Part shown: positions 5,731 to 64,000 of the stretch, in pieces | Numbering within the stretch: the first letter of the stretch is position 1 | How the letters are laid out: each line of letters starts with the position of its first letter | Origin: Serratia ficaria | GTDB taxonomy: Bacteria; Pseudomonadota; Gammaproteobacteria; Enterobacterales; Enterobacteriaceae | Direction: 5' to 3' | Assembly: GCF_900187015.1 (NCBI RefSeq) | Contig: NZ_LT906479.1 | Span: forward strand, 3,410,001 to 3,474,000 | DNA length: 64,000 nucleotides | Program-made: the position numbers and the translations under genes | Notes under the pieces: model-generated | What the model saw: the letters and a program-made list of their open reading frames with translations, nothing else | Databases searched by the model: none | What the model was told of the DNA's origin: nothing

Positions 5731-5733
5731 GGA

Positions 5734-9541: not shown

Positions 9542-10428
9542 CGCGCCTTTCCTCCCAGCGAACGGCTGATGCGGTTGGCCGCCAGCACCACCGCCACCAC
9601 CACCATGCCCGGGAAGGTGGTCAGCCACCAGGCGGTGGAAATGTAGTTGCGCCCTTCGGCGATCAGCAGCCCCCATTCCGGGGTCGGCGGCGGGGTGCCG
9701 TAGCCGAGGAAACTCAGGGTGGCGATCGCCAGAATGGCGCTGCCGAACTGCAGCGCCGAGAAGGCGATCGCCGAAGTCAGCGAGTTCGGCAGGATATGCC
9801 GCCACAGCACCGCCCAAAAGCTGCCGCCGCTGCCGTAGGCCGCTTCGACGTAATCGCTGTGGCGCACTCGCACCACTTCCGCCCGCGCCAGGCGGGCAAA
9901 GTTGGCTACCGAAGTGACGCCCACGGCGATGGCGGCGTTGACCGTGCCGAAGCCCAGCAGAATGATGATGCTCAGCGACAGCAGCAGGCCGGGGATCGAC
10001 AGCAGCACGTCGACGACGCGCATCACGGCGTCGTCCGCCGCGCCGCCCAGCGCGCCGGCGATCAGGCCGAGCGCGGTGCCGAACACCAACCCCAGCGCCA
10101 CCGCCACTACCGCGCCGGCCAGGGTTTGCGAAGCGCCGTATACCATGCGCGCATACAGGTCGCGCCCCAGCTGATCGGTACCCAGCCAGTGCTCGCCGCC
10201 GGGCGCCAGCCGCTGCGCGCCGGCAATGCCTTCGGTGCCGCTGTAGGCGGTAAACAGCTGCGGCGCCAACGCCCACAGCGCCACCAGCGCCATGACCGCC
10301 CAGGCCAGCAGCAGCGTCAGGGGGACGCGGCGGCGGCTCGGGCGGCTGGCGGGCAGCGCGCCTTCACTTTCCGCGCCGGACAGATCGCGCTCCGGCACCG
10401 TGGCTTTGTCAAAGGAGATACTGCTCAT
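9538..10428 (-). CDS. ABC importer permease, DppC-like
   Basis: A 296-residue inner-membrane permease. After a polar N-terminus come ~6 membrane segments, the DppC/OppC entry HWLGTDQLGRDLYARMVYG, and the EAA loop EAAYGSGGSFWAVLWRHILPNSL that contacts the ATPase. The start at 10428 overlaps the end of the other permease by ATGA and follows AGGAG-like sequence inside that gene. Together with the DppB-like subunit it forms the channel of the importer. Confidence 0.92.
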   Translation of the reverse strand: MSSISFDKATVPERDLSGAESEGALPASRPSRRRVPLTLLLAWAVMALVALWALAPQLFTAYSGTEGIAGAQRLAPGGEHWLGTDQLGRDLYARMVYGASQTLAGAVVAVALGLVFGTALGLIAGALGGAADDAVMRVVDVLLSIPGLLLSLSIIILLGFGTVNAAIAVGVTSVANFARLARAEVVRVRHSDYVEAAYGSGGSFWAVLWRHILPNSLTSAIAFSALQFGSAILAIATLSFLGYGTPPPTPEWGLLIAEGRNYISTAWWLTTFPGMVVVAVVLAANRISRSLGGKAR

Positions 10429-11369
10429 AGGGATGCTCCTGCCTGGGTTTTCAGCCGCGGATCCAGCAGCGGGAACAGCAGATCCACCAGCAAGTTGATG
10501 GTGACGAAGGCGGCGGCCGAGATCAGCACTATCGCCTGCAGCACCGCCACGTCCTGATTGACCACCGCTTGCTGGGTCAGTTGCCCCAGGCCGCTGCGGC
10601 CAAACACGGTTTCGGTGATCAGCGCCCCGGCGATCAGTTCGCCGAACAGCATGCCGGCGATGGTCAGCGCCGGCAGCATGGCGTTGCGCGCCACGTGCCG
10701 CCACAGCACCCCGCTGCGGCCGGCGCCCTTGGCCCGCGCCACCGCGACGAACGGCCGGGTTTGCACCGCGTCGATGCTGCGGATCAGAATTTGCGCCAGC
10801 GGCGCGGAGATCGGCAGCGCCAGCGTCGCGATCGGCAGGATCAACCCCTGCCACTCGCCGGGGTTAATGATCGGGATCAGCTTCAGGCGGAACGAAAAGA
10901 TCTGAATCAGCACTATGCCCAGCCAGAAGGTGGGTACCGAAACGAACAGCGACGGCAGCGTCTGCAGCGCCGAACGCAGCCAGCCGAAGCCGGTCAGGTT
11001 GGAAGCAAAAGCGATAAGCAGCGCCAGCAGCAACGCCACCGCAAAGCCCAGCACCGCCAGCTGCAGCGTGGCGGGCAGATTAGCCGCCAGCAGCGCGGTA
11101 ACCGGCACCCCGGCCTGCATCGAGTAGCCCAGATCGCCATGCAGCACGCTGCCCAGGGTATGCAGATACTGCCGCCACAGGGGGACGTCCGCACCATAGG
11201 CCGCGCGCATGTCGGCAATCTGCGCCGGGCTCAGCCCCATGTCCGGGTTCTGAAATTTAATCAGGATCGCATCCCCCGGCAGCACCTGCAGCAGGATGAA
11301 CGACAGGGTAAAGGCCGCCCACAGCACCAATAGCGCCTGCCCGATGCGCCCCGCCAGATATCGGTTCAT
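10425..11369 (-). CDS. ABC importer permease, DppB-like
   Basis: A 314-residue inner-membrane permease beginning MNRYLAGRIGQALLVLWAAFTL, the usual DppB start with a membrane segment, then LPGDAI, and an EAA-type loop VARAKGAGRSGVLWRHVARNAMLPAL. Length is normal for the family. It follows the binding-protein gene by nine bases and overlaps the DppC-like gene, so stoichiometric expression is expected. Confidence 0.92.
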   Translation of the reverse strand: MNRYLAGRIGQALLVLWAAFTLSFILLQVLPGDAILIKFQNPDMGLSPAQIADMRAAYGADVPLWRQYLHTLGSVLHGDLGYSMQAGVPVTALLAANLPATLQLAVLGFAVALLLALLIAFASNLTGFGWLRSALQTLPSLFVSVPTFWLGIVLIQIFSFRLKLIPIINPGEWQGLILPIATLALPISAPLAQILIRSIDAVQTRPFVAVARAKGAGRSGVLWRHVARNAMLPALTIAGMLFGELIAGALITETVFGRSGLGQLTQQAVVNQDVAVLQAIVLISAAAFVTINLLVDLLFPLLDPRLKTQAGASL

Positions 11370-11378
11370 TGCCCCCCC

Positions 11379-13004
11379 TTAATGTTTCTCTAACCAGGCG
11401 CCGTAGAAGCTCGGGCGGCCGACCGCCTCGAAGCTCACCCCCTTCAAATAAGGCGCGCCGGCGAACACCTGCGGATCCTCGAAGAACGGGATCGCGTAGG
11501 CCTGGTCAATCAGGTAATTTTGCGCCTCGCCGGCTGTCTGCAGGCGTTTTTGCGCGTCAACCTCGGAGGCGATGCCGAGCAGCAGGGCGTTCAGCTTGTC
11601 GTCGCTAAAGCCGCTGTTGCTGCTGGCGCCGCCCTTCTGCAGCAGCCCGTCGCGGTTGGTTGGGTAAAACTGGCTTTTGATCACGTCCGGATCGGCGCGC
11701 CCCACCTCTACCACCGCCGCCGGGGTTTTCTGCGGGTCGAGGTTATCCGCCACCCGGCTGCCGGCGTCGCCCGCCAGAACGTTCAGCCGCGCGCCCACCT
11801 TGCCCCACTGCTGCGAAACCAGCTGCAGCACCGCCTTGTTCTGCGGCTGCGGCAAAGATTCGTACACCGTCAGCAACAGCTTCCTGCCGTCTTTTTCGCG
11901 CAGCCCGTCAGCGCCCTTCTTCCAGCCGGCTTCGTCCAACAGCCGGTTGGCCAGCTGCGGGTCGAATTTCAGCTTGTCGGACAGATCGACAAAGCCGGCG
12001 GCCGAGGCGGCGATCACCGATTTGGCCTGCGGGTAGTTGGCGGAGAACAGCGTATCGACGATTTGTTTGCTGTCGGTGGCGTGCAGCAGCGCCTGACGCA
12101 CCCGCAGATCGGCCACCAGCGGGTTATCCGGCCGGAAGGCGATGCTGTCGTTGACGCCGCGCGTCGGCGCGGCATAAATGATAAAGCCCTGATCCTGCGT
12201 CTGCTTCTCGTCATAGGCCTGGATCTGGCGGATAAAATCCGCCTGCCCGGCCTGCAGCGCGCCGATGCGCACGCTGTCTTCCCCGGTGACGATCACTTTA
12301 ACGCCGTCCAGATTGGCGCGGCCCTGCTGAGCCAGGCGGGCCGGCCCCCAGCTGTAGTCTTTGCGCGCGCTGAGATCGACCTCGCGCCCCAGCGTTTCGC
12401 CGCTGACCACAAAGGGGCCGGAGCCGATGATATGGCGCGCGTCGCCCAGTTGGTCGTAGCTGCGGTTCAGCGTGCTGAGCGATACCAGCCCGGAGCCGAT
12501 GGTGGCGGTGCCCTGCAGGAAGCCCGGCGACGATCGCGTGAAGAAGAATTTCACCGTTAGCGGATCCACCACTTCGCTGCGCTGGTAGTTATTGATCACC
12601 TCGGAAACCGGCAGGCGTTTCTCCCTGTTGCCCAACCCGTAGGTGTCGAAGTTCTTCGCCACCGCGTTGGCGTCCAGCGGCGTGCCGTCGGAGAAGGTCA
12701 CGCCGGGGCGCAACTTGAAGGTGTATTCGGTTTTGTCGGCGTTGCTGCTCCAGGACTCGGCGATCCAGGGTTCAATCTCCAGCGTCTTGGGGTTCTGATA
12801 GGTCAGCTTGTCGGTTATCTGGTTGAGAATGCCGCCGTTGGGGTAAAAACCGCCGGAAGGCGGATAAAGATTGGTGTGCGCCTGCTGTTCAAGGTAGACC
12901 AGCGTGCCGCCCTGCACCGCCGCCAGCGCCGGTTGCATCCCCGCCGCCAGCCCTAACGCCACCGCGATCCCGCTGGTTAACCCATTGAAAGAAAAATTAA
13001 ACAT
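11379..13004 (-). CDS. periplasmic solute-binding protein, family 5 (peptide type)
   Basis: A 541-residue SBP_bac_5 protein with a signal peptide (residues ~1-28, ending PALAAVQ) and GGTLVYLEQQAHTNLYPP, ESWSSNADKTEYTFKLRPGVTFSDGTPLDANAV, the family's diagnostic region. It matches the style of the group I recall as KPN_01854, linked to luciferase-like monooxygenases. First gene of the six-gene operon; its leader carries a full ERIC element between the likely promoter and the ATG. Ligand unknown; the downstream oxygenase and AhpD-like genes suggest an organosulfur or other small xenobiotic rather than a peptide. Confidence 0.88.
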   Translation of the reverse strand: MFNFSFNGLTSGIAVALGLAAGMQPALAAVQGGTLVYLEQQAHTNLYPPSGGFYPNGGILNQITDKLTYQNPKTLEIEPWIAESWSSNADKTEYTFKLRPGVTFSDGTPLDANAVAKNFDTYGLGNREKRLPVSEVINNYQRSEVVDPLTVKFFFTRSSPGFLQGTATIGSGLVSLSTLNRSYDQLGDARHIIGSGPFVVSGETLGREVDLSARKDYSWGPARLAQQGRANLDGVKVIVTGEDSVRIGALQAGQADFIRQIQAYDEKQTQDQGFIIYAAPTRGVNDSIAFRPDNPLVADLRVRQALLHATDSKQIVDTLFSANYPQAKSVIAASAAGFVDLSDKLKFDPQLANRLLDEAGWKKGADGLREKDGRKLLLTVYESLPQPQNKAVLQLVSQQWGKVGARLNVLAGDAGSRVADNLDPQKTPAAVVEVGRADPDVIKSQFYPTNRDGLLQKGGASSNSGFSDDKLNALLLGIASEVDAQKRLQTAGEAQNYLIDQAYAIPFFEDPQVFAGAPYLKGVSFEAVGRPSFYGAWLEKH

Positions 13005-13040
13005 GCCCGTCTGCCCTTATTATTTGAAAGTTACGGGTTG

Positions 13041-13164
13041 TACCCTATAGCTTTCAAGTTGCAGCAAGGCGGCAAACGCGAGGATCCTCAGGAGCTTACT
13101 TAAGTAAGTGACTGGGGTGAGCGCGTGCAGCCAACAATGCTGCAGCTTGAAAGATGACGGGTAT
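13041..13164. repeat. complete ERIC element
   Basis: About 124 bp containing the well-known conserved core used for ERIC typing (AAGTAAGTGACTGGGGTGAG...) and inverted terminal parts (TTTCAAGTTGCAGC / GCTGCAGCTTGAAAG). Size agrees with the ~126-bp enterobacterial repetitive intergenic consensus. It lies 37 bp upstream of the solute-binding protein start, so it is likely transcribed as a large hairpin in the 5' leader. Confidence 0.92.
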
Positions 13165-13299
13165 ATAACAAGCCAAATCGGCAGGGAGTAGAACGAACTA
13201 TTTTCGCTAACCTATGGCGCAAATCGCACAAGGCGAGGCGGCTTGGCAGAAAAGATGTTTTGTTATAACGTATCGTGAATAAGCGAGGGGAGTGAAAAG

Positions 13300-13548
13300 A
13301 TGAAAATTCAGCTATCGCTGCTGTTCCTTGGCCTGGCGGCCGGGCAGGCGGCGGCGTTTCAGTCCAAAGTGCCGGAGCCGCAGCCCGAACAGGCGCGCGC
13401 GGCGCAAGATAATATCGAAAGCCTGTTCTACGGTTTTCACGCGCTGGACGCCCAGGCGGTCAATCCCGGCACCTGCGCGGCGGTGCCGGTGCCGGGGTGC
13501 CAATGCGCGTTCTGCAGCCAGCTGCGCCAGGCCGGCGCGGCGAAATAA
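13300..13548 (+). CDS. small secreted Cys-containing protein, function unknown
   Basis: An 82-residue protein with a clear signal peptide (MKIQLSLLFLGLAAGQAAAF, cleavage around residue 19) and a strong GAGGGGAG ribosome site. The mature part is ~60 residues with four cysteines, three of them in CQCAFC near the C-terminus, which could bind metal or form disulfides. I do not recognise the family. It stands alone between the importer operon and alaX, transcribed divergently from the former. Confidence 0.65.
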   Translation: MKIQLSLLFLGLAAGQAAAFQSKVPEPQPEQARAAQDNIESLFYGFHALDAQAVNPGTCAAVPVPGCQCAFCSQLRQAGAAK

Positions 13549-13560
13549 ACCCGCCGCAGG

Positions 13561-14190
13561 TCAGCCCATTTCATACTGCACGATCAGCTGCCCTTTCTTC
13601 ATCTTCACCGCGGTGATGTTGACCTCGCCCAGCTCGCTCAGCGAGGCCACGTGGGTGCCGCCGCAGCCGTAGGCCGGCAAATCGCCGAAGCCGACCTGAC
13701 GCATGCCGTTCACTTCCCGCTGGCGGCGCGGCAGATCGGCGGCGATCAGCCGCGCCAGCTCCGCCTGCAGATAGCCCTGCTCCAGCGTTTGCGCGCCGGC
13801 GCCCGGCGTGAAGGTAATGCGCCCCTCACCCGGCCAATGGTGCGCCTTCACCGGCTGCCAGCCGCGGGTCTCGCCCAGCCAGCCGATCAGATGCCCGGCG
13901 GAATGCCAGCGGGTGTGCAGGCGGCGTTGTTCGCCATCCACCCGGGCCAGCACTGGCCCCAGCGGCAGCGGTTCGGCGGTGAAGTGCAGCACCTTATCGC
14001 CCTGCTGCGCCACCCGCAGCACCGCCGCTTCGCCCAGCGTGCCGCCGTCTGCGGGCTGCCCGCCGCCCTGCGGGTGGAACGGCGTGGCGTCCAGCTCAAT
14101 CGCGAAGGCGCCTTCTTCCACCGGGGTGCAGGCCAGCACCCGTACCTCGGCCTGTAAATCATCGCTGTAGTAATAACGTCGTTCGGTCAT
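13561..14190 (-). CDS. alanyl-tRNA editing protein AlaX
   Basis: A 209-residue free-standing homologue of the AlaRS editing domain, which hydrolyses Ser-tRNA(Ala) or Gly-tRNA(Ala). Zinc ligands are seen in HTRWHSAGHLIG (two His) and in YGCGGTHVASL (Cys and His). The N-terminal FHPQGGGQPADGG is typical. Two adjacent ATG codons (14193 and 14190) follow AGGAG; the second has better spacing. Divergent from the LysR regulator across ~84 bp. Trans-editing activity is known for the family. Confidence 0.88.
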   Translation of the reverse strand: MTERRYYYSDDLQAEVRVLACTPVEEGAFAIELDATPFHPQGGGQPADGGTLGEAAVLRVAQQGDKVLHFTAEPLPLGPVLARVDGEQRRLHTRWHSAGHLIGWLGETRGWQPVKAHHWPGEGRITFTPGAGAQTLEQGYLQAELARLIAADLPRRQREVNGMRQVGFGDLPAYGCGGTHVASLSELGEVNITAVKMKKGQLIVQYEMG

Positions 14191-14274
14191 CATTTTTCTC
14201 CTGGTTGGGGGAGCTATTATATTCGTGCCATAATCGCAGGATAATCCGTCATCGTCACAATGGACCTTTGCGCC

Positions 14275-15210
14275 ATGAGCACAAATCTTTCGCATTCGCT
14301 GCTGGCCGAAATGGCCGTTTTCGTCGAGGTGGTGGAAAGCGGCAGCTTCTCCGCCGCCGCCCGCCGCCTGGGCGCTTCGCCGTCCGCTATCAGCCGCAGC
14401 GTCGCCAGGCTGGAACAGGCGCTGGCGCTGCGCTTGCTGCACCGCACCACCCGCAAGCTGCGCCTGAGCGAAGCGGGGGAAGAGGTGTTGCTGCACTGCC
14501 GCAGCATGCTGGCGGCGGCGGACGCGGTGATGGCCGTCAACGGCCAGGGCGCCGCGGAGCCGGAAGGCGCGATCGGCGTCAGCGTGCCCAAGGCGGTGGG
14601 CAGATTCGTGCTGCATCCGCACATGCCGGAATTCCTGCGCCGTTACCCGAAGGTGGACGTTCGGCTGCGGCTGGAAGATCGTTATATGGATCTGATTGAC
14701 GATAGGGTCGATTTGGCGCTGCGCATCACCGATCGCCCTTCTCCCGGGTTGATCGGCCGTCAGTTAATGAGGATAGATCATCTGCTGTGCGCCACCCCGC
14801 ACTACCTGGCGCAGCACGGCGCGCCCCGGCAGCCGCAAGATCTCACGGCGCACAGCTGCATTTATCTCGGCGAAACGCCCAACGACGCGCGCTGGAAATT
14901 TCGCCGCGGCGGCAAAACGACCACGGTGGCAGTGCGCGGCCGCTACGCCGCCAACCATACCGGGGTACGGCTGGACGCGGTGAAGCAGCATATCGGCATC
15001 GGCAGCCTGCCGTATTTCACCGCGCGCCAGGCGCTGGACAGCGGTGAGCTGGTGCAGGTGCTGCCGGAATGGGATTTCCTCAGCAGCTATCACGGCGGCC
15101 TGTGGTTGCTGTATGCGCCCAACCAGCACCTGCCGCCCAAGCTGCGGGTGTTTATCGATTACCTCGTCGCCCGCCTGGCCAAAGAACCGCAGCTACAGCG
15201 CCTTGCGTAG
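14275..15210 (+). CDS. LysR-family transcriptional regulator
   Basis: A ~311-residue LysR regulator: N-terminal winged HTH (FVEVVESGSFSAAARRLGASPSAISRSVARLEQAL split over residues ~12-46) and a C-terminal periplasmic-binding-like effector domain. An in-frame ATG at 14260 is possible; 14275 gives the usual short leader before the HTH. It is divergent from alaX and could control it. Its 3' end overlaps the convergent alkB by 18 bp. Target and effector unknown. Confidence 0.85.
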   Translation: MSTNLSHSLLAEMAVFVEVVESGSFSAAARRLGASPSAISRSVARLEQALALRLLHRTTRKLRLSEAGEEVLLHCRSMLAAADAVMAVNGQGAAEPEGAIGVSVPKAVGRFVLHPHMPEFLRRYPKVDVRLRLEDRYMDLIDDRVDLALRITDRPSPGLIGRQLMRIDHLLCATPHYLAQHGAPRQPQDLTAHSCIYLGETPNDARWKFRRGGKTTTVAVRGRYAANHTGVRLDAVKQHIGIGSLPYFTARQALDSGELVQVLPEWDFLSSYHGGLWLLYAPNQHLPPKLRVFIDYLVARLAKEPQLQRLA

Positions 15211-51737: not shown

Positions 51738-51813
51738 TCCTCTGTAGTTCAGTCGGTAGAACGGCGGACTGTTAATCCGTATGTCACTGGTTCGAGTCCA
51801 GTCAGAGGAGCCA
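51738..51813 (+). tRNA. tRNA-Asn (GTT), second copy
   Basis: Identical over all 76 bases to 29198-29273, with encoded CCA and GTT anticodon. An AT-rich island begins shortly after it, so this gene is the likely integration site. Confidence 0.98.
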
Positions 51814-51820
51814 TATTAGA

Positions 51821-51855
51821 AAAGCCCGCTTAAGGAAACTTAAGCGGGCTTTTTG
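51821..51855 (+). terminator. intrinsic terminator after tRNA-Asn copy 2
   Basis: AAAGCCCGCTTAAG-GAAA-CTTAAGCGGGCTTT followed by TT: a 14-bp perfect stem and GAAA loop. Confidence 0.92.
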
Positions 51856-51899
51856 CTTTGGTGCTTTCCTTTGGCCCGGTGAAATCGGGATACGTGAGA

Positions 51900-52221: not shown

Positions 52222-53379
52222 TTATTTCCATTGCAAGAAAAATTGGAATGCGGATCGCTTTGGATCCTGTGTATCAATTACATAAAAATTTCGAGGGAAA
52301 CTTCCTTCTGCGCTTCGACCTAAGCGATTTAAACCATACATTGATAAAAGACGCCCGACTATCCTTTCCGACTCAGGAAAAATCTGCGAGGGGATTCGAA
52401 ATACCTTTATTGTATAACCATTAGCAAGCTGAACTCGAAGAGTGATTAAACTATCCCCCTCCTCAACGTCCAGTAACCGCCCGATAATATCATAGTCAGA
52501 GAACGTAGGTCCAAACTGATGTTGCTGCAGGTGTTGCTGTAGCTTTTCACGATAAACAGGGCATGAGCAACGACTTATACATGTGACGCAATGTTTTCCA
52601 GTTTGTACAAGAGCTTCGGCATAAAAAGTCTTATTCAATGGTAATGTATTGTTCAATTTACTAAGAATATGGATAAGTCGGTCATTCAGGATTTTATCCA
52701 GATGTCCCAACCAGCTGTCAGAAGCACCTGCCAGCTCTAATTCAATATCAACATCAGGAATCTGTTCTTTCACCATCATCCCATATGCCGCAATTTGCAG
52801 AAAGTAATGGTCTTTAGGCTGGTTTGTTTCATCCAATACTTTGCCGGTTTTGAAATCAACGACCCGTATCGACCCCGAGTCTGTTTGATAAATCAGATCT
52901 GCTCTTCCAATCATATTGAACTTGGAGCTGCTAAGTATTTTTTCTCTGCCAAAAGGAATTATTCCTTCTTGCTTTTCGAGCCTGATTGGCGAATATTTTC
53001 CTCGCTCCACAAAAGGTTTAGTTATCGATTTAGCATAGCGAACTTGTTCAAGCAGCGTCTGACGGGATATTATTCCTGAAATGCCGTAATGTTGAAGGAC
53101 CCATTCAGTAATGGGCCCTGCCCGTTTAGTATTCCTCAATGCACTAATGAAGGAGCTCTCTAACAGCTCTACAAATGAGGCTGGCGTGCCATCTAAATTC
53201 TTTTGCAATGTATTCGCCAACCAATGTACAACACTTCCGAGAATCGTCCGAGGATGTAAAGATACCTGGTGGGTAGTATGTAGTTCACTCTCCAGTAAGT
53301 ATCTCGCTGGGCATGCAATAAACACTCCTAGCTTAGACGGGATCGCCGGACGAGTACGCGTAAGTGTTATAGCATTCAT
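52222..53379 (-). CDS. PD-(D/E)XK nuclease, Cas4/RecB-like with Fe-S cysteines
   Basis: A 385-residue protein. The nuclease core is visible as His52 (GSVVHWLAN), Asp161 (IGRADLIY), Asp175-x-Lys177 (VVDFKTGK) and Gln195 (FLQIAAYG), the RecB/Cas4 order. Cys23 near the N-terminus (IACPARYLL) and a cluster at 264, 267, 271 and 273 (CVTCISRCSC) match the layout of Cas4 and AddB nucleases, where one N-terminal and three C-terminal cysteines hold a 4Fe-4S cluster. A further ~100 residues at the C-terminus are unrecognised. AAGGAGG lies in the last codons of the helicase gene, and the gap is seven bases, so the two are coupled. AT-rich, unlike the chromosome around it. Confidence 0.85.
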   Translation of the reverse strand: MNAITLTRTRPAIPSKLGVFIACPARYLLESELHTTHQVSLHPRTILGSVVHWLANTLQKNLDGTPASFVELLESSFISALRNTKRAGPITEWVLQHYGISGIISRQTLLEQVRYAKSITKPFVERGKYSPIRLEKQEGIIPFGREKILSSSKFNMIGRADLIYQTDSGSIRVVDFKTGKVLDETNQPKDHYFLQIAAYGMMVKEQIPDVDIELELAGASDSWLGHLDKILNDRLIHILSKLNNTLPLNKTFYAEALVQTGKHCVTCISRCSCPVYREKLQQHLQQHQFGPTFSDYDIIGRLLDVEEGDSLITLRVQLANGYTIKVFRIPSQIFPESERIVGRLLSMYGLNRLGRSAEGSFPRNFYVIDTQDPKRSAFQFFLQWK

Positions 53380-53386
53380 ATCGCTC

Positions 53387-56300
53387 TCAATCCTCCTTAT
53401 TACCGTCAGGGTTTCTTAGCTTAGTCATAACAGCTCCCATACGACGAGAGAGATCAAAAGTACTGATCGTTTTTTTCTCCAGTTGCCATTCAAGGAAAAG
53501 CCTTTCAAGCTCAGGATTAGCAATGAAAACGCCATCCACGCTCCAGAATGGGTGGGTCACCGCAACCCATCGTTGTGGGCCAATGTTAATTAGCGGAATA
53601 TGGCCTACCATTCTAACTTCACTATTAAAGAGTGATGCCGCCTCTTTGGCTAAACTCACGGCATTTTCTCGCCAATCAGCGATACCGGGAGCTGAGAAAT
53701 CACCATTTAGTCCGGCATCATAATTTTTATCCAGTAGCAGTTGGATAACATCCAGCCCAAGTCGCCAGTCAAGTAACCCGTGATAAGCCTGATTACCATA
53801 TCTGTGCAAGCAATGATAACACGCCTGAATACATTTTTTCGGATGGTCATTGTCCAGAAACTCTTTTAGCGGGAAGCCATTTTTGTTGCTGACAATAGCT
53901 TTCATTACCTCAAGAATTATCGGCGTACCAGATGATCCTTTCTGTTGTAAACGCTCGCATAACCCAGAACCATTAACCAGACGATCGGCCATTTGCAATA
54001 TCGGTGCCAGCCTTCCGTCCGCTAATCTTTGGACACGCGGCTCCAGAATTTCGATTTCTTCTGGATCGATATCAAGCAGCTCTTTTGATGCATAGTTGAC
54101 AATAATAAATGCAGCAGAGAGTGCTGCGGCCCGGAATGCCGGCGTCTGTAAATGAAGGCCAACAGGGGTATTAACCACCATCAGAGCCAACAAGTCCGTC
54201 ACTTTAGGTGCCGCAAGATAAAAAGAGGTTCTACTTTCCTGTAAAGGCGTGAACCGTCTTTTCAGCACAGGATCTGTTTCAAGTAATTGGCTATCGGCCC
54301 AAACGCGATTTGCCGTTAATGATTGATATACGCCCTCTTTTCTATAGGGAACACGCAAGTTTCCCTGTAGCGCATTGAAACCGCTCCACCGTTCATCGAT
54401 ATAAGTGCCCCGATTAAGGCGATGAAGACAAATTTGAGATTCAAGTTGAATGGCAACATTAGCATCAAACTCTGCCTCAGATGAGATTGAGTAAGCCTCA
54501 GCAATAGAAGCTCGGCTGGCATTGGTCAGAGTTTGATCGATATCCTCTTTGACTGATTTATCTTCCAGTGAGGTAATAAACCCATAAGGTACATAACATT
54601 GGTACTGCTCAACATCATCTAACACCGCACCGCAGGCGGTACATTCGGGGATCGTGTGATTGATTGGAGTCCAGACATGACATACTGGGCAGGCAGTCAT
54701 CTTTCGACCTTCTCCCAGTTCACTCACGTTGGAATCAAATTCTTTAGCGTTGGGATAGCGCTGCCTAAGCATCCCAGCATAACCTGCTGTTAAGTAGCGT
54801 CGTTTGTCCTGTACCAGATATTTTCCCGGTGCAAACTCTTGTATTGCAATGTCCAGATCGCGATCCATGCTAGCAAACTGGATATCGTCTTCTCCTGTAG
54901 CAATAGCTCTGGTTTGTAGCAAACGCGTGCGAGTTGGCATACCATACATCGGGAATTGCCCTCGCTCCGCCAGCGCTTCAGCCAGCCCTTTACCCGCCAT
55001 CGCATTATCGTTTAGCGCCGAATCAATATCCTGACTCATATTGTCGGGGGTCAGTAATTGCACAATGCTATGATAGAAAGATTGATTATCCGGCATGCAG
55101 ACATGGGCAAATTCATCACGATCTCTCATCGTTGCTATTAGTGCCTGACGGATACGTGGTAGCCAGTCAACCCGATGGTCTTTTAGCCAGTCAACTTGAA
55201 AAAACTCACCGTGGTTATCGGTTTTATGCCTGTGTTCATCTACAGGCCATGACTGGTGTGAATTAATTGTGTTCTGTCTTAGCCACTTGAACGCAGCAAC
55301 CAACCAGACTTTGCGCACCAGTCGTTGACAGATCATTTCCAGCTTGGTTGTTAAGAAAGGCGGCGGTGGAAGGTCACCAGTGATTTTTTCTGGATGACGG
55401 AAGTAAAATAGATCATGGCTTTTGCTACGACACGCGGTCAGAACGAAAGCAAAAGCCTGACCACGTCGCCCAGCACGACCTACGCGCTGCTGGTAGTTAA
55501 AACGTTGCGGTGGCATGTTGGCCTGAAATACAGCACGTAAATCGCCAATATCAACGCCAACTTCCATGGTAGTTGTTACAGAAAGCACGTCAATAACGCG
55601 TGCCTTTCTGTCCAGCGCAGTGTCTGGTTCAAAGTTTTTCAGTCCCGTTGGTAAAATATCATCATCATCCGCAATAAGAATACCTTTGAAGCGACGTAAT
55701 CTTGCTGCTGGATTTTCTGTCATCCCAGTGAGCTCCTCAGAACGCATTCGATGGTTGCCGGATGAATGCAAAATACGTTTACCAAGGTAGTTTTGTTTCT
55801 GAAGCATACCAGCTTCACCGTATTGTATTTCGGGTAAAACAGCATGACAGCGGGTGCATATTTTGGCCCCCAGATGTAAGTGAACGCGACCGCACTTGTT
55901 ACAGCGCCAGAAGCTAGCTGCAGGTTCAACTAAATGGAAATGCACTTTGCCAATATCAATTACTCCACCTTGATGCCCCGCTTTTTCAAGTAGCAGAAGA
56001 AACTCATCAAGTAAGCCTAAAACACTACCGCCAGATTGTTGACATATTGAATTAGCAAAGCGATATACCCTATTGAGTTTAGGGATCGCTGATGCCTTTC
56101 TCCAAGGTGTGTTAGGGTTGTCGGGATTACGATACTGCGATGGCTCGACTCGATAAGCGTCCGCCAAAACTCGAAGTAATGCATCAAATATTGCCAATTT
56201 TTCCCTGGAGTAATTCTCAGAAATAGGGATGCAGGGATACCCCCATCCAGCTTCTTCCAATGCAAAGTAAGTTTTGCTGAATACGCTTTCACCGGCTAGT

Positions 56301-59300
56301 TCTTTCAGATCGCGTGAAATTTCCTGACGAGCAATATTCAGATCAGTTTCATAGTAAGGAAAAGCCTTCCAGCACCATTTATTTTGATGGTCTTTATCAA
56401 AGAGCTGCTGCCATGTAAAGGTTTTAATGTCTTCTCTATATTTTGATGGATCGGGTACCGGGTTAATGCCAGTCCGGTCCGTCGGATGAATACCAGCTTT
56501 AACCAGCTTAGCCAGCAATCTATTAAGTGGCTCTCCCGCCTTGGGCGAATTTTCCAATATAGCTTCTAGCGAGACACTATCAGCCTGTGGGAGTAATAAC
56601 GTTTCTTTGATGTGTTTTCGTTCTTTCCAAAGATCGTTTAGTTCTTTTTCCTGTACGTCTGAGAGTTTGTTAAGATCATCAAGAATATCAAGTTCTTTCT
56701 TCCTTTTTGTAACCTCATCAAAACGTATACGCAATTTTTCATGTGAACAATTATCCGCCGCAAGTTCTTTCAGCGAACCGATGAGGATCTCCCTCCTGAT
56801 ATCATCATGATGCCCAGATTCAAGATCAAGCGCGGCCTTAGCCGCATCTTGTCGACTATCAGAGAACGTTATCAGTCGTTCTTGATCTCCGAATTTATGC
56901 AATTCAGCCATTAATGTACTAGCAAGGAGCTGCGTGGTTTTCGCGAAACCTACTCGAAAACCACGAATAGGAGACTGTTTTCCTTTACCATATTTATATG
57001 AGGTTCCACATGCTGGGCATTGGAAAGGCAATGAAGAACCAGGTGATTTACTGGATGACTGTTCTCGTTTCGGAGGGATAAAATCCCCCACAGGAACATT
57101 ATAGAACCAGCCAGCAATATCGGTTTTTAGTAAGGGTTTTACCAGAGATATTGGCTGAGTAATCGTTGCGGTAAACGGATCGTAACTTGCCTCCCTCCAT
57201 TTACCAAAAGAATCGTCATCTGCGAGTTTTTCATTACCGAGAGGCCAGAACCGATCAACGGTTGGCATAAACAAGACATATTCTTCTGCTGAACGTCGCT
57301 CAATCATCACCGATTTTGCGTGCTCCGGGAGCTTCTCTATGTCAGGATCGTTTGGTAGAAGTTCTGTCCGCTCACTTCTCGCTGAGAAAGCAGATGGTTT
57401 TCCGCCCAAAAATAATGTTGCACAACATTCACAATAGAGCAGTTCCACGCGTCGCGAACGCTGCCTATCTCCATACAAACGATCACCGTACCGTAGACCA
57501 GACTCAACCGTAAGATCGGCAAATAACCATTGATTTATTTCATCTTTATCTGCTTGTGGCGGTGATGGCAGCGGAGCAACATATAAACCTTCCAACGCGC
57601 GTAAAAATGCGTGAGCCCGAAAACGTGGTAGTACAATATGAGCAGGAAAAGGATGTGCAAACCACTTTTGCCAACTATCAACCGTCACCCGTATCCAGAT
57701 TAGCGCACTGACTCCCCTACGCGCATCGGGATGTTCTCCAAATAGATCGGTTGCCAGTGAGTTGATAGCGGTTGCGCGTGAAGATTTTTTATCATTAGTA
57801 CATCCCTTTTCCAGCATTCGCGCAGCCAATAAGACCGTATGCTGCGCTAATTCTTCTATGGTAACATCATCACGATAGCATCCCAGACTACGAGCTATGT
57901 CACTCCATATTCCAGATGCCTCCGTTGACTTCAGTTTCTCAACCGCCTGACAAAGCGCTGGGAGATCCCCACAAAAAAGCGGTATATCAACCAGTTCATC
58001 GAGTTTTCCATCAACAATACAAGTATTCCAGTCCTTCGCGCTGGCATTCATTGGTAATCCGCGTTGACCAAACATGCCCCAAAGATAGTCAATACTTTGA
58101 TTACCCTCCTGACCACTCACGGGGAGTGAAGCACTCGAAGCCAGAATTCGTAATTTGTGTCGATGTTGTGGTTGATCTAGCCCCAGGCGGTTGATCAAAT
58201 GTTTAAGCAAATAGCTGACTTCAGTGCCTGCCGTACCGCGCTGGAGATGCAGTTCATCGAGCACAAGATAGAAGTAGGCATTCGGATCGCGTTCGATCCA
58301 TTGTTGGGTCTGATCAAAAATAGGGTCGTCAATTTCACGCACCAGCATAGTTGAAAGCATGCTGGTGTTAGTAATGAGAATATCTGGCGGCATTTTTTGC
58401 ATTTCCCAGCGACTAAGCACTTCGCCTCCGCCCGGTCTGGGAAAATTGAACTGTAAATTATCATCCTTATCGAGATTCCCTTGATGTACAGCCTCTTTAT
58501 GGGTCTGTTCAGCAAATTGCAGATATTTACGTAATTCAGTGACTTTACCTGCCACACGTTTTTTCTCTTTTGGCTCATTACCTAGTCGAGGATGATCCAA
58601 CCACCCAGTCACTTTCGTGGCACTGGTATAACGACCAAAGAAAATACGATTGCCACCAAAATGGGAATCCATTACCTCATGAGCTTCATCAGAATCGAGC
58701 GCTCTGCGCATACGCACTAATTGATCTTCTACTAGCGCATTCATCGGATAGAGGATTAATGCTCGCACAGCTTTAGGTCTCCCATAAATAGGAGCTTCTC
58801 GATCTCGCATAAAGGTAGGTTGGGCATTTGGTTCATGCCACCATGGCAGCCAACTTTTAAGCGCGGTACTTTGAGACCATTGACTTGCCTCTTTGGCAAT
58901 TTGCGCCAGAATAGGCAGTAAGAAGGATTCTGTTTTACCAGAACCCGTTCCTGAAGTAACAATGCCGGGCTTGCCGGGTTGTACGCCTCGTTGTAACATT
59001 TCTAATTGATGGGTATAGAGTTTAAAACGCCCTTTGGTCACATCCTTGAGATCGCGTGGCAAAAGCCCTCCCAGGCATAGATCGATAAATGCAGCCCTTT
59101 GCTGGGCGGTAAATCCCGGCAGCCATGTTTCCCCTTTCGAAGCATCCCGTAAGTCGCTAATAGTTAAACCATAGTCTCTATATCGGGGCATTGGTTCCAG
59201 AAATAAATCCGCACACAACGTCCCTTGCTTTTCAAGTAATTCTCGGCGGTACCCCTGAATGGCAGGAGATCCAATACGGAAGGCAGTCTCAAGATAAGCG

Positions 59301-59347
59301 ATGTAAAAATCCCTTATGGATTCAAACGTTTCTAATGGGTTGTTCAT
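53387..59347 (-). CDS. giant superfamily-2 helicase with DUF1998/MZB domain
   Basis: 1,986 residues. The helicase core shows motif I TSGTGSGKTE (~131-140), motif II LVLDELH (~362-367), a VGVDIGDLRAVF-type motif V and motif VI QRVGRAGRRGQ (~1290). Several Cys pairs follow the first RecA domain and lie near the end (CPACGTSY, CNKCGRVH with ICTRCHAVL, CPVCHVW with CTACG), and a DUF1998/MZB signature CIQACYHCLHRYGNQ lies at ~1845. This architecture and size are those of DruE (Druantia) and, more distantly, DrmA/DrmB (DISARM). The ATG at 59347 follows AAGGAAGG; an in-frame start 33 bases upstream would overlap the preceding gene. It likely moves along and remodels foreign DNA using ATP. Confidence 0.88.
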   Translation of the reverse strand: MNNPLETFESIRDFYIAYLETAFRIGSPAIQGYRRELLEKQGTLCADLFLEPMPRYRDYGLTISDLRDASKGETWLPGFTAQQRAAFIDLCLGGLLPRDLKDVTKGRFKLYTHQLEMLQRGVQPGKPGIVTSGTGSGKTESFLLPILAQIAKEASQWSQSTALKSWLPWWHEPNAQPTFMRDREAPIYGRPKAVRALILYPMNALVEDQLVRMRRALDSDEAHEVMDSHFGGNRIFFGRYTSATKVTGWLDHPRLGNEPKEKKRVAGKVTELRKYLQFAEQTHKEAVHQGNLDKDDNLQFNFPRPGGGEVLSRWEMQKMPPDILITNTSMLSTMLVREIDDPIFDQTQQWIERDPNAYFYLVLDELHLQRGTAGTEVSYLLKHLINRLGLDQPQHRHKLRILASSASLPVSGQEGNQSIDYLWGMFGQRGLPMNASAKDWNTCIVDGKLDELVDIPLFCGDLPALCQAVEKLKSTEASGIWSDIARSLGCYRDDVTIEELAQHTVLLAARMLEKGCTNDKKSSRATAINSLATDLFGEHPDARRGVSALIWIRVTVDSWQKWFAHPFPAHIVLPRFRAHAFLRALEGLYVAPLPSPPQADKDEINQWLFADLTVESGLRYGDRLYGDRQRSRRVELLYCECCATLFLGGKPSAFSARSERTELLPNDPDIEKLPEHAKSVMIERRSAEEYVLFMPTVDRFWPLGNEKLADDDSFGKWREASYDPFTATITQPISLVKPLLKTDIAGWFYNVPVGDFIPPKREQSSSKSPGSSLPFQCPACGTSYKYGKGKQSPIRGFRVGFAKTTQLLASTLMAELHKFGDQERLITFSDSRQDAAKAALDLESGHHDDIRREILIGSLKELAADNCSHEKLRIRFDEVTKRKKELDILDDLNKLSDVQEKELNDLWKERKHIKETLLLPQADSVSLEAILENSPKAGEPLNRLLAKLVKAGIHPTDRTGINPVPDPSKYREDIKTFTWQQLFDKDHQNKWCWKAFPYYETDLNIARQEISRDLKELAGESVFSKTYFALEEAGWGYPCIPISENYSREKLAIFDALLRVLADAYRVEPSQYRNPDNPNTPWRKASAIPKLNRVYRFANSICQQSGGSVLGLLDEFLLLLEKAGHQGGVIDIGKVHFHLVEPAASFWRCNKCGRVHLHLGAKICTRCHAVLPEIQYGEAGMLQKQNYLGKRILHSSGNHRMRSEELTGMTENPAARLRRFKGILIADDDDILPTGLKNFEPDTALDRKARVIDVLSVTTTMEVGVDIGDLRAVFQANMPPQRFNYQQRVGRAGRRGQAFAFVLTACRSKSHDLFYFRHPEKITGDLPPPPFLTTKLEMICQRLVRKVWLVAAFKWLRQNTINSHQSWPVDEHRHKTDNHGEFFQVDWLKDHRVDWLPRIRQALIATMRDRDEFAHVCMPDNQSFYHSIVQLLTPDNMSQDIDSALNDNAMAGKGLAEALAERGQFPMYGMPTRTRLLQTRAIATGEDDIQFASMDRDLDIAIQEFAPGKYLVQDKRRYLTAGYAGMLRQRYPNAKEFDSNVSELGEGRKMTACPVCHVWTPINHTIPECTACGAVLDDVEQYQCYVPYGFITSLEDKSVKEDIDQTLTNASRASIAEAYSISSEAEFDANVAIQLESQICLHRLNRGTYIDERWSGFNALQGNLRVPYRKEGVYQSLTANRVWADSQLLETDPVLKRRFTPLQESRTSFYLAAPKVTDLLALMVVNTPVGLHLQTPAFRAAALSAAFIIVNYASKELLDIDPEEIEILEPRVQRLADGRLAPILQMADRLVNGSGLCERLQQKGSSGTPIILEVMKAIVSNKNGFPLKEFLDNDHPKKCIQACYHCLHRYGNQAYHGLLDWRLGLDVIQLLLDKNYDAGLNGDFSAPGIADWRENAVSLAKEAASLFNSEVRMVGHIPLINIGPQRWVAVTHPFWSVDGVFIANPELERLFLEWQLEKKTISTFDLSRRMGAVMTKLRNPDGNKED

Positions 59348-59361
59348 ACTATATACCTTCC

Positions 59362-62172
59362 TTATGACTGAAATAGGCAATCAAGCACCGCTGCAGCCTC
59401 GCCCTGCGTAATTTCCCGAGCATAATTCGTTAGTGTAGGTGCTAATGGCACAATATCTGAAACTATTTTCTCCGATGTGCTACGCCCAGATTCAAACGCT
59501 AATTTGGTAATTGCCTGTGATTCTTCATCAGAATAATGGAAAGATTTCAGTGTAGTTTGTAAGATTTGCTGTTCATTATGATGATTAGCGTTAGATTGAC
59601 GGGTACTTGTATATAGTGATTTCCATAATACTGACGTTACATAGGTGGATGTGATCTCAGTAGTGCTATTAGCGGGTTGTTCATCACCCCAGATGCTTTC
59701 GGCCAGAAACATCGGCAATCTGCGAGCACTAGGCCCCTGTAATGGGAACGTGCTTTTACCAACAGCAAAGGTCAACACAAACAGTATCGGTTGGCTAATT
59801 GAAATATGGCGCAGCGTCTGATGTTGATCCACCCAGCAAAATCCAGATGCTAGTTCATCACTGATCTGGCAGTCACTCAACTCAGGTAACAATGTCTCTG
59901 GTGGCATACGGTTAAATCCACGTAACTCCACCACCGTAGCCAGTCTATTATCTTGCTGATGCAGCAAAAAATCCCCCAGAGTCATGGTGCATGTGTTTTC
60001 CACTCTTCTGACTAATACAGGAGATTTCATTAAATCGCTGATGCTAAACAAATCACCGTGGATAGAAACTTCCCCACGAACTCCGCCTGAAAAAACGTTA
60101 GCTATAGCAGAAAGCGCTTTTTTAGTATTTTTCCCCAATAACCCAACAATAGGTGTTACATTCGCGGCTGCGACAATGCATGATAAAAAGGTTTCACTTA
60201 GCCCTGTTGCAGTTGCCTGCTCTTCCATCACTGTCAATAGCTGACTTTTACTGGTTATCTCAGTTGCTATTGGTGATAGATACGGTTCTGGCTGCGGTAT
60301 AGATAGTGAGGCTACAATGGCGGATTCAGGTTTAACTGTAAAATCGGGTTTCGGCACCGCTACATCAGCGACCAGTGCACGAAACAAGGCCGTTTGTGCT
60401 AGTGTTTCGATACCGGCTTGTGACGCATTTTCGAAGGTTTGTCTGATACGCAAATCCAGTTCTGCTTCCTGTTGGCGAATCATTTTTTTTGATTTTTCTG
60501 TTTCAGTTTTTAGATGTTTATTTTGTTTATCGATTTCCAATTCAAGTTGTGCTTTCTTGTCAGCCAAAGAAGAGATTGCCTGTCTTAATTGTTTCTGTTC
60601 ACTTTCATAATCAGCCAGAATCGCTTTCTTCTCTATATTAATTTTAGCATCTACTACGGGCAATTCCAGTAGCCGCTGAACCATATCATCCAACAATTCT
60701 CTTGAATCAGCAATCTGCTCCAGATGAGCCAAGGCACGGAAATAGGCCTTACTCCCTGGCTCATACTCATTAATAAATTGAGTTAAACTTTGCAAATGTT
60801 TTTTGTTGAAAACAGGAAAGTTAGTTGATGAATAATTTAGCTTCATCAGACGTTTTATCCATGTACCAGCGGGCGCACAATCGTATTTTTCGCTGGCGAT
60901 GGGAAGTCGAGTCACAATGGTGGTTTTCTGTGAATGTAATTTAACACAGGTCAATTTTCTGTAGCTATCAAGTGGTACATCGAAGTCATATTTTCTAGGA
61001 TCCGATAGATCACCGGGAAGTCTTAACGCTACCCCATCATCCAGCAAAAAAATAGCAGGAGATTCATCATGTGGTTGATACTGAGTTAATAACCACGCTC
61101 TGACAGAGTCTGGGTCACTGGATAAATGGGGAAGCTTGACGACAGGGTATACACGCGACTGATAGCCAGCCAGTACATATTGAGCCTGTTTGTCGGATGG
61201 TCGATGTTCCGCCTCCCATACTCCCAACTCTCCTTGAGTAAAATTTTTGGTGTAATTGTTTATAAATCCAACTACTTCACCACGATGAGGATATATGGCC
61301 TTCACTTGTTCTTCAGAAAGTGACCAAAGTTTATCATTAATAAATATAGCAACAGGTGAAACAAAGAAAGCATCATTAGGAAGCAATTTGGTAACGACAC
61401 CGACAAAAGCTATGCTATCGATTACATAACCGTTCACATCCTCTGTTGCAATAAACTCTGCCGATAAAACTTCAATACCGTTAGCTTCTTTCTGATTATG
61501 AGAATACTCAAATTCCGTGATAATACTTTCAAATTTTTGCGCCATAGGGGAGGCATGTCTGGATAACTTTTCCTTCCACCCGCTGGCTGCTTCTTGCTCA
61601 CCATTAAGCGTATTCACAAGACCAGCAACAAACATCGGAAATATACGATCGGATGGTGCAACGTGACCTTGGCTGATTAGTAAACATTGTTCTAGATCAT
61701 CTTCCGTCACATTGATAAATTGATCTTTCAACAAACTCTCGGAGTATTCTTCAACATGATCATGGAGTGGAAATATAGGCTCGTCATTGAGGAACCGCTC
61801 AATGATTTCAGGACATGGCTGAGAAATGTAAAATCCTAAAATATCGCGCCACAATAACTTTGACGATTCTATACCGTCGCCATTTTTTTCTTTTAACAGG
61901 ATGTCATTAAGAATTTTATTGGGATCGACTTGTTCAGAAAACTGTATGTTAGCTCGAAGCCATGTCTGGATAACAATCTGAGCTTTTGACTGTAGCTCAG
62001 TTAAAAAATGTAGTTGTTGAGATAGCGTTTTAGGCAAGTTATCCGCTTTTGCACCCGCCATAATGAGCTTCTGCTTACACTCTTTCAGGCAGTTGATTCG
62101 CTCGTGAGGTTCTAAACCATAGCAGTACATTTGGCTCAAGCGCACTTTAGTAAGTTGTTGTTTTTTAGCCAT
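59362..62172 (-). CDS. coiled-coil protein with degenerate P-loop region, unknown family
   Basis: 936 residues, not recognised as a named family. From ~511 to ~585 there is a long coiled coil (KAQLELEIDKQNKHLKTETE and surroundings). At ~671-690 VTPIVGLLGKNTKKALSAI sits where McrB-like AAA proteins have GxPGxGKTxLA; the second-to-last Gly and the Lys of the P-loop are not in place. It is followed by GEVSIHGDLFSISDLMKSPVL, which resembles the 'DLFG' strand after such a P-loop. It may be an ATPase that has lost nucleotide binding and now acts as a scaffold. Ends 14 bp before the helicase start, so it is co-transcribed. AT-rich. Confidence 0.75.
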   Translation of the reverse strand: MAKKQQLTKVRLSQMYCYGLEPHERINCLKECKQKLIMAGAKADNLPKTLSQQLHFLTELQSKAQIVIQTWLRANIQFSEQVDPNKILNDILLKEKNGDGIESSKLLWRDILGFYISQPCPEIIERFLNDEPIFPLHDHVEEYSESLLKDQFINVTEDDLEQCLLISQGHVAPSDRIFPMFVAGLVNTLNGEQEAASGWKEKLSRHASPMAQKFESIITEFEYSHNQKEANGIEVLSAEFIATEDVNGYVIDSIAFVGVVTKLLPNDAFFVSPVAIFINDKLWSLSEEQVKAIYPHRGEVVGFINNYTKNFTQGELGVWEAEHRPSDKQAQYVLAGYQSRVYPVVKLPHLSSDPDSVRAWLLTQYQPHDESPAIFLLDDGVALRLPGDLSDPRKYDFDVPLDSYRKLTCVKLHSQKTTIVTRLPIASEKYDCAPAGTWIKRLMKLNYSSTNFPVFNKKHLQSLTQFINEYEPGSKAYFRALAHLEQIADSRELLDDMVQRLLELPVVDAKINIEKKAILADYESEQKQLRQAISSLADKKAQLELEIDKQNKHLKTETEKSKKMIRQQEAELDLRIRQTFENASQAGIETLAQTALFRALVADVAVPKPDFTVKPESAIVASLSIPQPEPYLSPIATEITSKSQLLTVMEEQATATGLSETFLSCIVAAANVTPIVGLLGKNTKKALSAIANVFSGGVRGEVSIHGDLFSISDLMKSPVLVRRVENTCTMTLGDFLLHQQDNRLATVVELRGFNRMPPETLLPELSDCQISDELASGFCWVDQHQTLRHISISQPILFVLTFAVGKSTFPLQGPSARRLPMFLAESIWGDEQPANSTTEITSTYVTSVLWKSLYTSTRQSNANHHNEQQILQTTLKSFHYSDEESQAITKLAFESGRSTSEKIVSDIVPLAPTLTNYAREITQGEAAAVLDCLFQS

Positions 62173-62222
62173 CCTGATTAAACTCCTTTACATGCCAACT
62201 CAACAAATTCGTTGTGAATCTA

Positions 62223-62245
62223 ACGAACAAGTAAAAATTGTTCGT
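62223..62245. repeat. intercistronic hairpin
   Basis: ACGAACAA and TTGTTCGT, a perfect 8-bp inverted repeat with a seven-base AT-rich loop, lie in the 83-bp gap between the unknown gene and the coiled-coil gene. It could tune expression of the downstream part of the operon. Confidence 0.5.
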
Positions 62246-62255
62246 GCTGTTGGTA

Positions 62256-64000
62256 TTATCGGCCTTTGCGTAACTTTAACGCCCGCGAGCGGCGAACAAT
62301 GGCCCGGTTGTGATACTCTTGTGTAGTAGTTTCTGAACGATCTAGATCGCCCCAAATAGAGCTACCGCCACCGACAAATGAAACATGACCGTCATCGCCA
62401 ATAGAAAGACAGCCACCAGCAAAATGTAACCACCATTGTGTGAGAGAAGGCGGTAACGCTATTAGACTTTTTGACCAATGTAGATCACCGTTATGGCTCC
62501 GGAGACCCAATTTTTTCTTTGAAAAAATAGTCTGAGCCATCAATCCCCAAGCAAAGCTGTCAGTCCGCCAGTAACCATTTTTGGTAATAATAAAATATCG
62601 ATTGCGCTGTTTTTCCCGGCAACGTACGAAAGCATTGCAATTGTGGTCAATTAATACTGACTCTCCAGACCAATCATTTTTTGCTTCTAACCAAGTCGAC
62701 ACATTTACATTGACTGGTAACGATGGAATATTTTCTATCTGAGTGATTGGTAAAATCACAGCGCCTAATGGACTGACAGAAAAATCTGCCTTGGTAATAA
62801 GTTGCAAACCAAACTGTTTAACCAGCAACTTTGCACGATCAACGTTTGACAAATTTAAAGTAATACAACCTGTAGCAAGATCATGACCTCGTATTGACCA
62901 CCTTTCAAGATGCTCATTATCTTCTAGCGCATTTTGCAGATGATTACGTTCACTTTTTGTCATCATTCCACAAATACGAGCCACTGTACGCGCTTTGTCG
63001 TCAAGTAATGAGATTGTGCGAGGAGCCTGTATTACTGAGGCATAAGGTGTATACCGACTTTCAACCACAGAAAGCCAACCAGATGCAAATAGCATTCGGC
63101 GTAGCCGCCAGGCAGGAATACCTATTGCTCTGGAAACGGGTACGAGATGTTTATTTAGTTCATTAAAAGACAGCGTGCTGCGCCTTTGAAAACGTAGTGA
63201 CAGTGCTTCAGCTAACCAATCGAGCGCTACGGGAATAGAATGCAGACCAGTAAGTTCACGTTCTACAGGAGGCGATTCATGTTGTTGCCATAATGACCAC
63301 TCTCCCCCCATAGGACTAAGTTTCTGTTTATTTACAAATTCAGAGTTAGATTCGCTACGCGCAACATCATCAAGTGGTACTAAAACACCCAAAGGACCAT
63401 CAACCAACCAATTGCTTGGTTCTTTTAACCGTCGATAAAGCGCCTCAGGTGCATGGTCTAATACATGAACATCATAAGTAAGAGGCGTAATTTGTTGATC
63501 TACTGTTAATAGATAGCGGCACAGTGTTTGCCCGTGAATGGAAACCAATTTCTCTGGTGAAATATATAATCCTTCGTCACTGAGCGATAATTCACCTGTA
63601 GCAAGTTCATTACCCATAGAATCACAAATTACAAATCTTCCACTGTTAACTCCTTCCATGTGAATAAACGGAGTGCTAGCAGGGTTAAGTAATACAGCCT
63701 GTCCGAATCTCGCCCCACCAATAAGACGAGGCCTTGCTGGCATCCAACTTTGAATCAAAAAACGTTGGATGCTTTGAGGAAGTGCCTTCGCTAAGGAAGT
63801 CAGTGCCTGTCGACTTATTGCGTCAAAAAAAAGAATACTCCATTTATCACGTTCTGAATTAAACCCCAAAAAACTAAATTTTAAATTAATATGCTTACTC
63901 ACCACGCTAATGTTTTTTACATAACTACTATCTATCACCAGACAAACCGGACCATCATCAAAATAATGACCGTCAGAGCTAATATAGCCTGAGTCATCCT
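62256..64000 (-). CDS. unknown large protein, partial at the right edge
   Basis: The frame is open to the last base, so the start lies beyond the window; at least 581 residues are visible, beginning ...DDSGYISSDGHYFDDGPVCLV. No named domain is recognised. The fold looks globular with no membrane segments or signal peptide in the part seen. A basic C-terminus (HNRAIVRRSRALKLRKGR) could touch nucleic acid. A GTG within the window (63938) is not a likely start because the frame continues upstream with the same character. Same strand and base composition as the three genes after it, so part of the same operon. Confidence 0.75.
   Translation of the reverse strand, partial: DDSGYISSDGHYFDDGPVCLVIDSSYVKNISVVSKHINLKFSFLGFNSERDKWSILFFDAISRQALTSLAKALPQSIQRFLIQSWMPARPRLIGGARFGQAVLLNPASTPFIHMEGVNSGRFVICDSMGNELATGELSLSDEGLYISPEKLVSIHGQTLCRYLLTVDQQITPLTYDVHVLDHAPEALYRRLKEPSNWLVDGPLGVLVPLDDVARSESNSEFVNKQKLSPMGGEWSLWQQHESPPVERELTGLHSIPVALDWLAEALSLRFQRRSTLSFNELNKHLVPVSRAIGIPAWRLRRMLFASGWLSVVESRYTPYASVIQAPRTISLLDDKARTVARICGMMTKSERNHLQNALEDNEHLERWSIRGHDLATGCITLNLSNVDRAKLLVKQFGLQLITKADFSVSPLGAVILPITQIENIPSLPVNVNVSTWLEAKNDWSGESVLIDHNCNAFVRCREKQRNRYFIITKNGYWRTDSFAWGLMAQTIFSKKKLGLRSHNGDLHWSKSLIALPPSLTQWWLHFAGGCLSIGDDGHVSFVGGGSSIWGDLDRSETTTQEYHNRAIVRRSRALKLRKGR

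Follow-up and report, generated by a model that had tools for sequence, protein, structure and literature searches.

A 64,000-nucleotide stretch of the Serratia ficaria chromosome (the window; contig NZ_LT906479.1, positions 3,410,001–3,474,000) carries within its positions 52222–64000 four of the five genes of an operon that, judged from profile matches, is almost certainly a complete copy of the defense system Druantia type II. A profile search revealed that the Druantia models of PADLOC-DB cover all 5 proteins end to end: (i) the DruE2 model (PDLC00015) gave 2562.8 bits over residues 12–1992 of the druE product; (ii) the DruG2 model (PDLC00024) gave 1636.4 bits over residues 1–936; (iii) the DruF2 model (PDLC00022) gave 963.7 bits for the part of DruF inside the window and 1562 bits for the whole protein (residues 1–932); (iv) the DruM2 model (PDLC00031) gave 729 bits, the next best other family among the matches listed reaching 275 bits; and (v) a DruK model (PDLC00058) gave 664.8 bits over residues 1–385. 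According to the available part of the PADLOC paper (PMC8565338), the requisite proteins of type II are DruM and DruG beside DruE and DruF, and DruL instead marks type IV. Because the models match all the proteins and both DruM and DruG are present, we assign the operon to type II; the locus is not a new system but an unremarkable type II operon carried by an island at a tRNA gene.

The operon runs in the order druM-druF-druG-druE-druK on the minus strand. The open reading frame (ORF) listing confirmed 4 minus-strand ORFs in the window: druK (52222–53379; 385 amino acids), druE (53387–59347), druG (59362–62172; 936 amino acids), and druF (62256–64000), the last of which is truncated by the window edge and leaves an open frame of 580 amino acids. 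The genome sequence around the window revealed that the whole druF gene spans genome positions 3472256–3475054 (minus strand, 932 amino acids) and that druM (genome positions 3475059–3476144, minus strand, beyond the window; 361 amino acids) adjoins it upstream in the same direction. None of the 5 frames is interrupted, the motifs are intact, and the genes are tightly spaced. The guanine-plus-cytosine (GC) fraction in 2-kb intervals is 0.41–0.47 within the operon stretch, compared with 0.61–0.71 across most other parts of the window; the exception to this high-GC rest lies around 27–37 kb (0.52–0.60). An earlier reading made without database searches (the sequence-only reading) had described an operon of 4 co-directional, tightly spaced, AT-rich genes beside a tRNA gene, and the ORFs, the low GC, and a tRNA-Asn at 51738–51813 bear this out; its gene count holds for the ORFs in the window, of which the fourth is cut by the edge, and the fifth gene, druM, lies outside.

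The druE product is assigned to the YprA family of superfamily 2 (SF2) helicases because the DruE profile matches over the full length and cysteines near the C-terminus are kept in all 7 aligned DruE sequences. It carries the helicase motifs TGSGKT, DELH, and QRVGRAGR, is matched by the DEAD and Helicase_C families of Pfam, and matches PDB entry 9wae_A with 1148 bits over residues 14–1982; the PDB entries with this close DruE relative also include 9waf, 9wds, 9wdu, 9wdv, 9wdw, and 9wdy. The ORF extends from a TTG at 59380 (53387–59380, 1997 amino acids) or from the ATG of codon 12 at 59347 (1986 amino acids); the ATG is probably the start and is preferred here because the profile match begins at codon 12. 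The sequence-only reading had predicted an SF2 helicase of about 1,990 residues with DUF1998/MZB; size, motifs, and the DruE profile agree with it, and the domain label found no counterpart, DUF1998 not being reported by Pfam for DruE at an E value of 0.1 or better.

DruG is predicted to comprise a helical N-terminus, a cold-shock/OB-like domain (residues 251–341), one long helix predicted as a coiled coil (residues 505–586), and an AAA+ domain with altered Walker motifs (residues 640–912). The structure model has a fold match to MoxR/RavA at a predicted local distance difference test (pLDDT) score of only 71, and Walker A and B are altered in all 20 rows of the alignment. We therefore read DruG as a dead AAA+ protein, which agrees with its published interpretation as part of a "Type IV CoCoNuT" and with the coiled-coil protein with a dead P-loop that had been recognized from the sequence alone. 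DruM is a C5-cytosine methyltransferase with PCQ and ENV motifs, matched by the C5 methylase family of Pfam (PF00145, 224 bits).

DruK is a PD-(D/E)XK nuclease of the RecB/Cas4 family (PDDEXK_1, PF12705, 70 bits); the sequence-only reading had likewise seen a Cas4-like nuclease. Its cysteines are C23 and C264-x2-C267-x5-C273. In an alignment of 17 DruK sequences (that of the window plus 16 of the 29 others found), H52, D161 (of GRAD), D175 and K177 (DFKT), Q195 and Y199 (QxxxY), and the 4 cysteines are each invariant (17/17). We take these residues to be the RecB-family catalytic motifs and an iron–sulfur signature of the Cas4/AddB type. The DruK of a Rubrobacter plasmid (described below), only 26% identical, has identical residues at all these positions, and in a more remote DruK-like protein (locus L046, described below) D175 is replaced by E. 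DruK is already known to PADLOC-DB, which holds at least 3 models under that name; what the present comparison adds is its apparently constant position next to DruE in 6 loci plus 1. No paper naming "Druantia" and "DruK" together was found in the literature searched, and type II is described in the available text of PMC10273834 as a system of 4 genes, DruK not among them.

Related loci were collected by a scan of 84,980 species genomes built on the DruG alignment; it works through 2 short peptide patterns and so is not exhaustive, and because it used DruG, DruE-DruK pairs without DruG are invisible to it. It gave 7 loci; L013, which runs off its contig, is left uncounted. In the remaining 6, DruF, DruG, DruE, and DruK occur in this order on one strand, with druK directly after druE each time, which answers the question of whether the genes found in the window travel together elsewhere. 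DruM stands first in 4 of the 6, those of Yersinia rohdei, Shewanella chilikensis, Xenorhabdus bovienii, and a Pectobacterium species. In the 2 betaproteobacterial loci (Paucimonas and Massilia), a cytosine methyltransferase lies nearby on the opposite strand; the best model for the Massilia enzyme is one for DruM (538 bits), and the Paucimonas enzyme is matched better by general type II methyltransferase models than by DruM models. In Pectobacterium (L012), the operon is fragmented into numerous frames, and part of the N-terminus of the Massilia DruK (L011) lies in another frame. The Y. rohdei operon adjoins a phage-type integrase and a tRNA-Arg. Among the 197 related genomes, a full-length DruG match occurs only in the genome of the window itself, and 2 others have only short matches (E about 1e-4); the type II locus is rare in its neighborhood.

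Two of these loci have neighbors of their own. In Paucimonas lemoignei (L010:3640–6590), the methyltransferase is accompanied by a protein with matches to models of type IV restriction enzymes; both lie on the opposite strand, before DruF-G-E-K. In S. chilikensis (L008:19991–21839), an AbiEi-type antitoxin gene comes next after DruK and shares part of its sequence with another ORF; the 2 genes, only the first of which was scanned, are perhaps an AbiE toxin–antitoxin pair.

A DruK search of 72,556 plasmid records gave a single match at an E value of 1e-10, in the actinobacterium Rubrobacter marinus. On its plasmid NZ_CP045122.1 (L054, positions 2418–15179), druK directly follows a DruE (DruE2 model, 1917 bits), and the upstream genes encode an annotated Vsr endonuclease, a methyltransferase resembling DruM, and a short protein resembling DruF. 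This actinobacterial locus represents a variant of Druantia similar to type II; the PADLOC paper, in its available part, found type II only in Proteobacteria (PMC8565338). Two further loci also contain a DruE. L046 (G523:C11:1–18000) is a type-IV-like DruE locus in which a gene for a cytosine methyltransferase lies upstream and the gene immediately after DruE encodes a DruK-like nuclease. In L047 (G167:C50, 4932–8006 and 14344–15957), the first half of a 1024-amino-acid ORF is matched by DruF4 and its end by DruL; a DruE and a NERD-plus-helicase-like protein come next.

From these components we infer that this copy would defend against phages in the manner of a restriction system, which marks, detects, opens, and cuts. 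DruM would methylate a cytosine-containing sequence in the host's own DNA as a self mark; DruG, with its OB-like domain, coiled coil, and dead AAA+ domain, may together with DruF recognize a phage product, or else DNA that is foreign or lacks the mark, and recruit DruE; DruE, the ATP-driven helicase, would open or track along the DNA; and DruK would degrade the strand that DruE exposes, replacing the reportedly inactivated fused nuclease domain. DruK is likely the effector nuclease because the nuclease fused to type II DruE has been reported to be inactivated (PMC12458937). We consider the type II identity combined with this mechanism reasonably probable, and the mechanism itself, with DruK as its main step, slightly better than an even bet. 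A broader proposal, in which DruK belongs to the core of type II and of its closest kin as an invariable fifth gene and is also the effector, a RecB/Cas4-like nuclease in trans having replaced the fused activity lost by the helicase, is put forward tentatively; we lowered its standing from an even chance to a little below because no DruK was recognized in 2 type-I-like loci. If it is true, DruE-DruK with a methyltransferase would form a conserved core from Gammaproteobacteria to an actinobacterial plasmid, and DruF and DruG would be exchangeable sensor parts.

Several observations weigh against these proposals. (i) In the type-I-like loci (L048 and L049, which have DruD matches), the DruK profile found nothing, and PADLOC named no DruK among their 5 scanned proteins; since the inactivated Vsr is reported for type I too (Bell et al.), the rule that a dead fused nuclease entails a DruK in trans did not extend to type I in these 2 loci. 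(ii) The Rubrobacter locus has no DruG match among the 5 proteins scanned and a reduced DruF; because this relative lacks a recognized DruG and has a shortened DruF, the division of labor among DruF, DruG, and DruE is uncertain. (iii) The structure model of DruF gave no fold match over the noise level. (iv) DruK could be an accessory gene, the available four-gene description of type II (PMC10273834) omitting it. (v) No type II experiment was found in the literature consulted; the 2 mechanism papers, in their available parts, concern type III, where DruE is described as a helicase–nuclease acting on intermediates that contain single-stranded DNA, with DruH as the likely sensor (preprint, PMC13192584), and where phage DNA circularization and replication are blocked (PMC13316683). 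As these papers leave type II aside, the comparison made here is a pointer to DruK as a possible nuclease in trans.

An accessory role for DruK is the basis of the most probable alternative. Here the operon is still Druantia type II, DruK serves for example as a processing or recycling exonuclease, and the agent of killing is either DruE or an RNA-directed activity that arrests growth, of the kind put forward for CoCoNuT systems. We regard this as unlikely: in the 6 type II loci that no contig end interrupts, as well as on the plasmid of Rubrobacter, DruK comes after DruE and retains its cysteines and the residues of its active site, and Pfam recognized no RNase domain in any of the 5 proteins.

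The operon with DruK as its candidate effector takes up a 14.8-kb island, rich in AT, that integrated at the end of the tRNA-Asn (GTT) gene (51738–51813, plus strand; ARAGORN and Rfam). Among the matches listed, a 126-bp stretch with this tRNA is 94% identical to E. coli, which points to an enterobacterium or one of its close kin as host. The left attachment-like repeat (51798–51856, plus strand, 59 bp) consists of the last 16 bases of the tRNA and a downstream hairpin, and the right repeat (genome positions 3476496–3476554, beyond the window; 59 bp) is 91.5% identical to it. The 2 repeats lie 14.7 kb apart with only the 5 dru genes found between them, and at the right repeat the GC fraction climbs from 0.41 through 0.57 to 0.68 in 250-bp steps; the island thus holds just this operon between clear ends. 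A search of the 5.21-Mb genome found no tyrosine integrase in or close to the island: it gave 12 tyrosine recombinase matches, and even the closest, at 4.21 Mb, is separated from the island by about 0.74 Mb. This absence, and a base composition far from that of the host, would suit a relic or silent copy of type II that has lost its defense function, which we consider improbable given 5 full-length open frames with intact motifs and tight spacing, in contrast with the broken Pectobacterium copy. The remaining alternative, the new system related to but distinct from Druantia that the sequence-only reading had favored, retains next to no probability: the set does look unfamiliar without PADLOC (no Pfam family for DruG or DruF, and nothing above cut-off in NCBIfam for DruG or for as much of DruF as the window holds), and the claim falls because the set matched a known PADLOC subtype, the outcome that reading had named beforehand as decisive. 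The 4 genes it saw match Druantia models over their full length, with DruE, DruG, and DruF being those of type II, and the gene that completes the type II set, druM, was hidden from it because it lies past the window edge; its recognition of a defense module built on a Druantia-type helicase was sound.

A mesX gene was found in 25 other genomes of the genus, and the region before it was compared in 12 of these (L026–L037); the island DNA had no match in any of the 12 stretches. In 1 of them (L029), the tRNA-Asn lies next to mesX with no island, and because the gene left of the tRNA is also shared (94% identity), this is a clean empty site. The tRNA lies within 7 of the 12 stretches, with tRNA-to-mesX gaps of about 0.3, 0.3, 0.7, 1.5, 2.1, 6.7, and 11.4 kb, and was not found within about 16 kb in the other 5. 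The gap is a variable spot in the genus, from about 0.3 to more than 11 kb, with differing contents: the 6.7-kb insert of L030 encodes a 1858-amino-acid PDC-S37-like candidate defense protein (1891 bits), and the gap of L028 holds a LysR-type regulator and a major facilitator superfamily transporter. In the genome of the window, an autotransporter gene (L002:15732–18527, beyond the window) lies between the right repeat and mesX; its DNA had no match in the 12 stretches. The window segment 29198–35243 holds a second, identical tRNA-Asn with lacY, lacZ, and a lacI-type regulator after it at a lower GC fraction (0.51–0.59), and these genes may be a further acquisition at a site of this type.

Compared with known systems, the operon shares all genes of Druantia type II, with full-length profile matches and the M-F-G-E order of 4 related loci; nothing essential differs, the druK gene standing outside the published four-gene description as available (PMC10273834). 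With Druantia type IV (DruE, DruF, DruL), the likeness lies in a DruE4 score of 1214 bits for this DruE and in the DruK-like protein after DruE in the type-IV-like locus L046; type IV was rejected, since DruM and DruG are present here and no DruL is among the matches listed for the 5 proteins. Types I and III were rejected likewise, with no DruA–DruD or DruH among those matches, and the DruE1 and DruE3 models gave this DruE 499 and 266 bits compared with 2563 bits for DruE2. Type III (DruH, DruE) has the YprA-like helicase DruE in common with type II, and its DruE bears a PLD nuclease domain of its own (PMC12458937). DISARM was also rejected: the DrmA score is just 33.4 bits, from about 70 residues, the matches listed include no DrmB, and the DrmMII model gave DruM 201 bits, against 729 for DruM2.

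DruK shares with Cas4 and AddB the PD-(D/E)XK core and the C...C-x2-C-x5-C cysteine signature. The cas4 model gives it 28.5 bits against a cut-off of 65, compared with 665 bits for its own family, and its neighbors are druE and the tRNA rather than cas1 and cas2, so a Cas4 of CRISPR adaptation was rejected. "Type IV CoCoNuT", the name given by Bell et al. (2025) to Druantia I and II, in a main text that makes no mention of DruF, DruG, DruM, or Cas4, has an inactivated AAA+ protein with a coiled coil beside a YprA-like helicase. The present operon shares this feature in druG, whose product has a coiled coil and an AAA+ domain with lost Walker residues, beside druE; the AAA+ protein may be a McrB/CnuB homologue or another kind of AAA+, and the name is a reclassification of the same system rather than another one.
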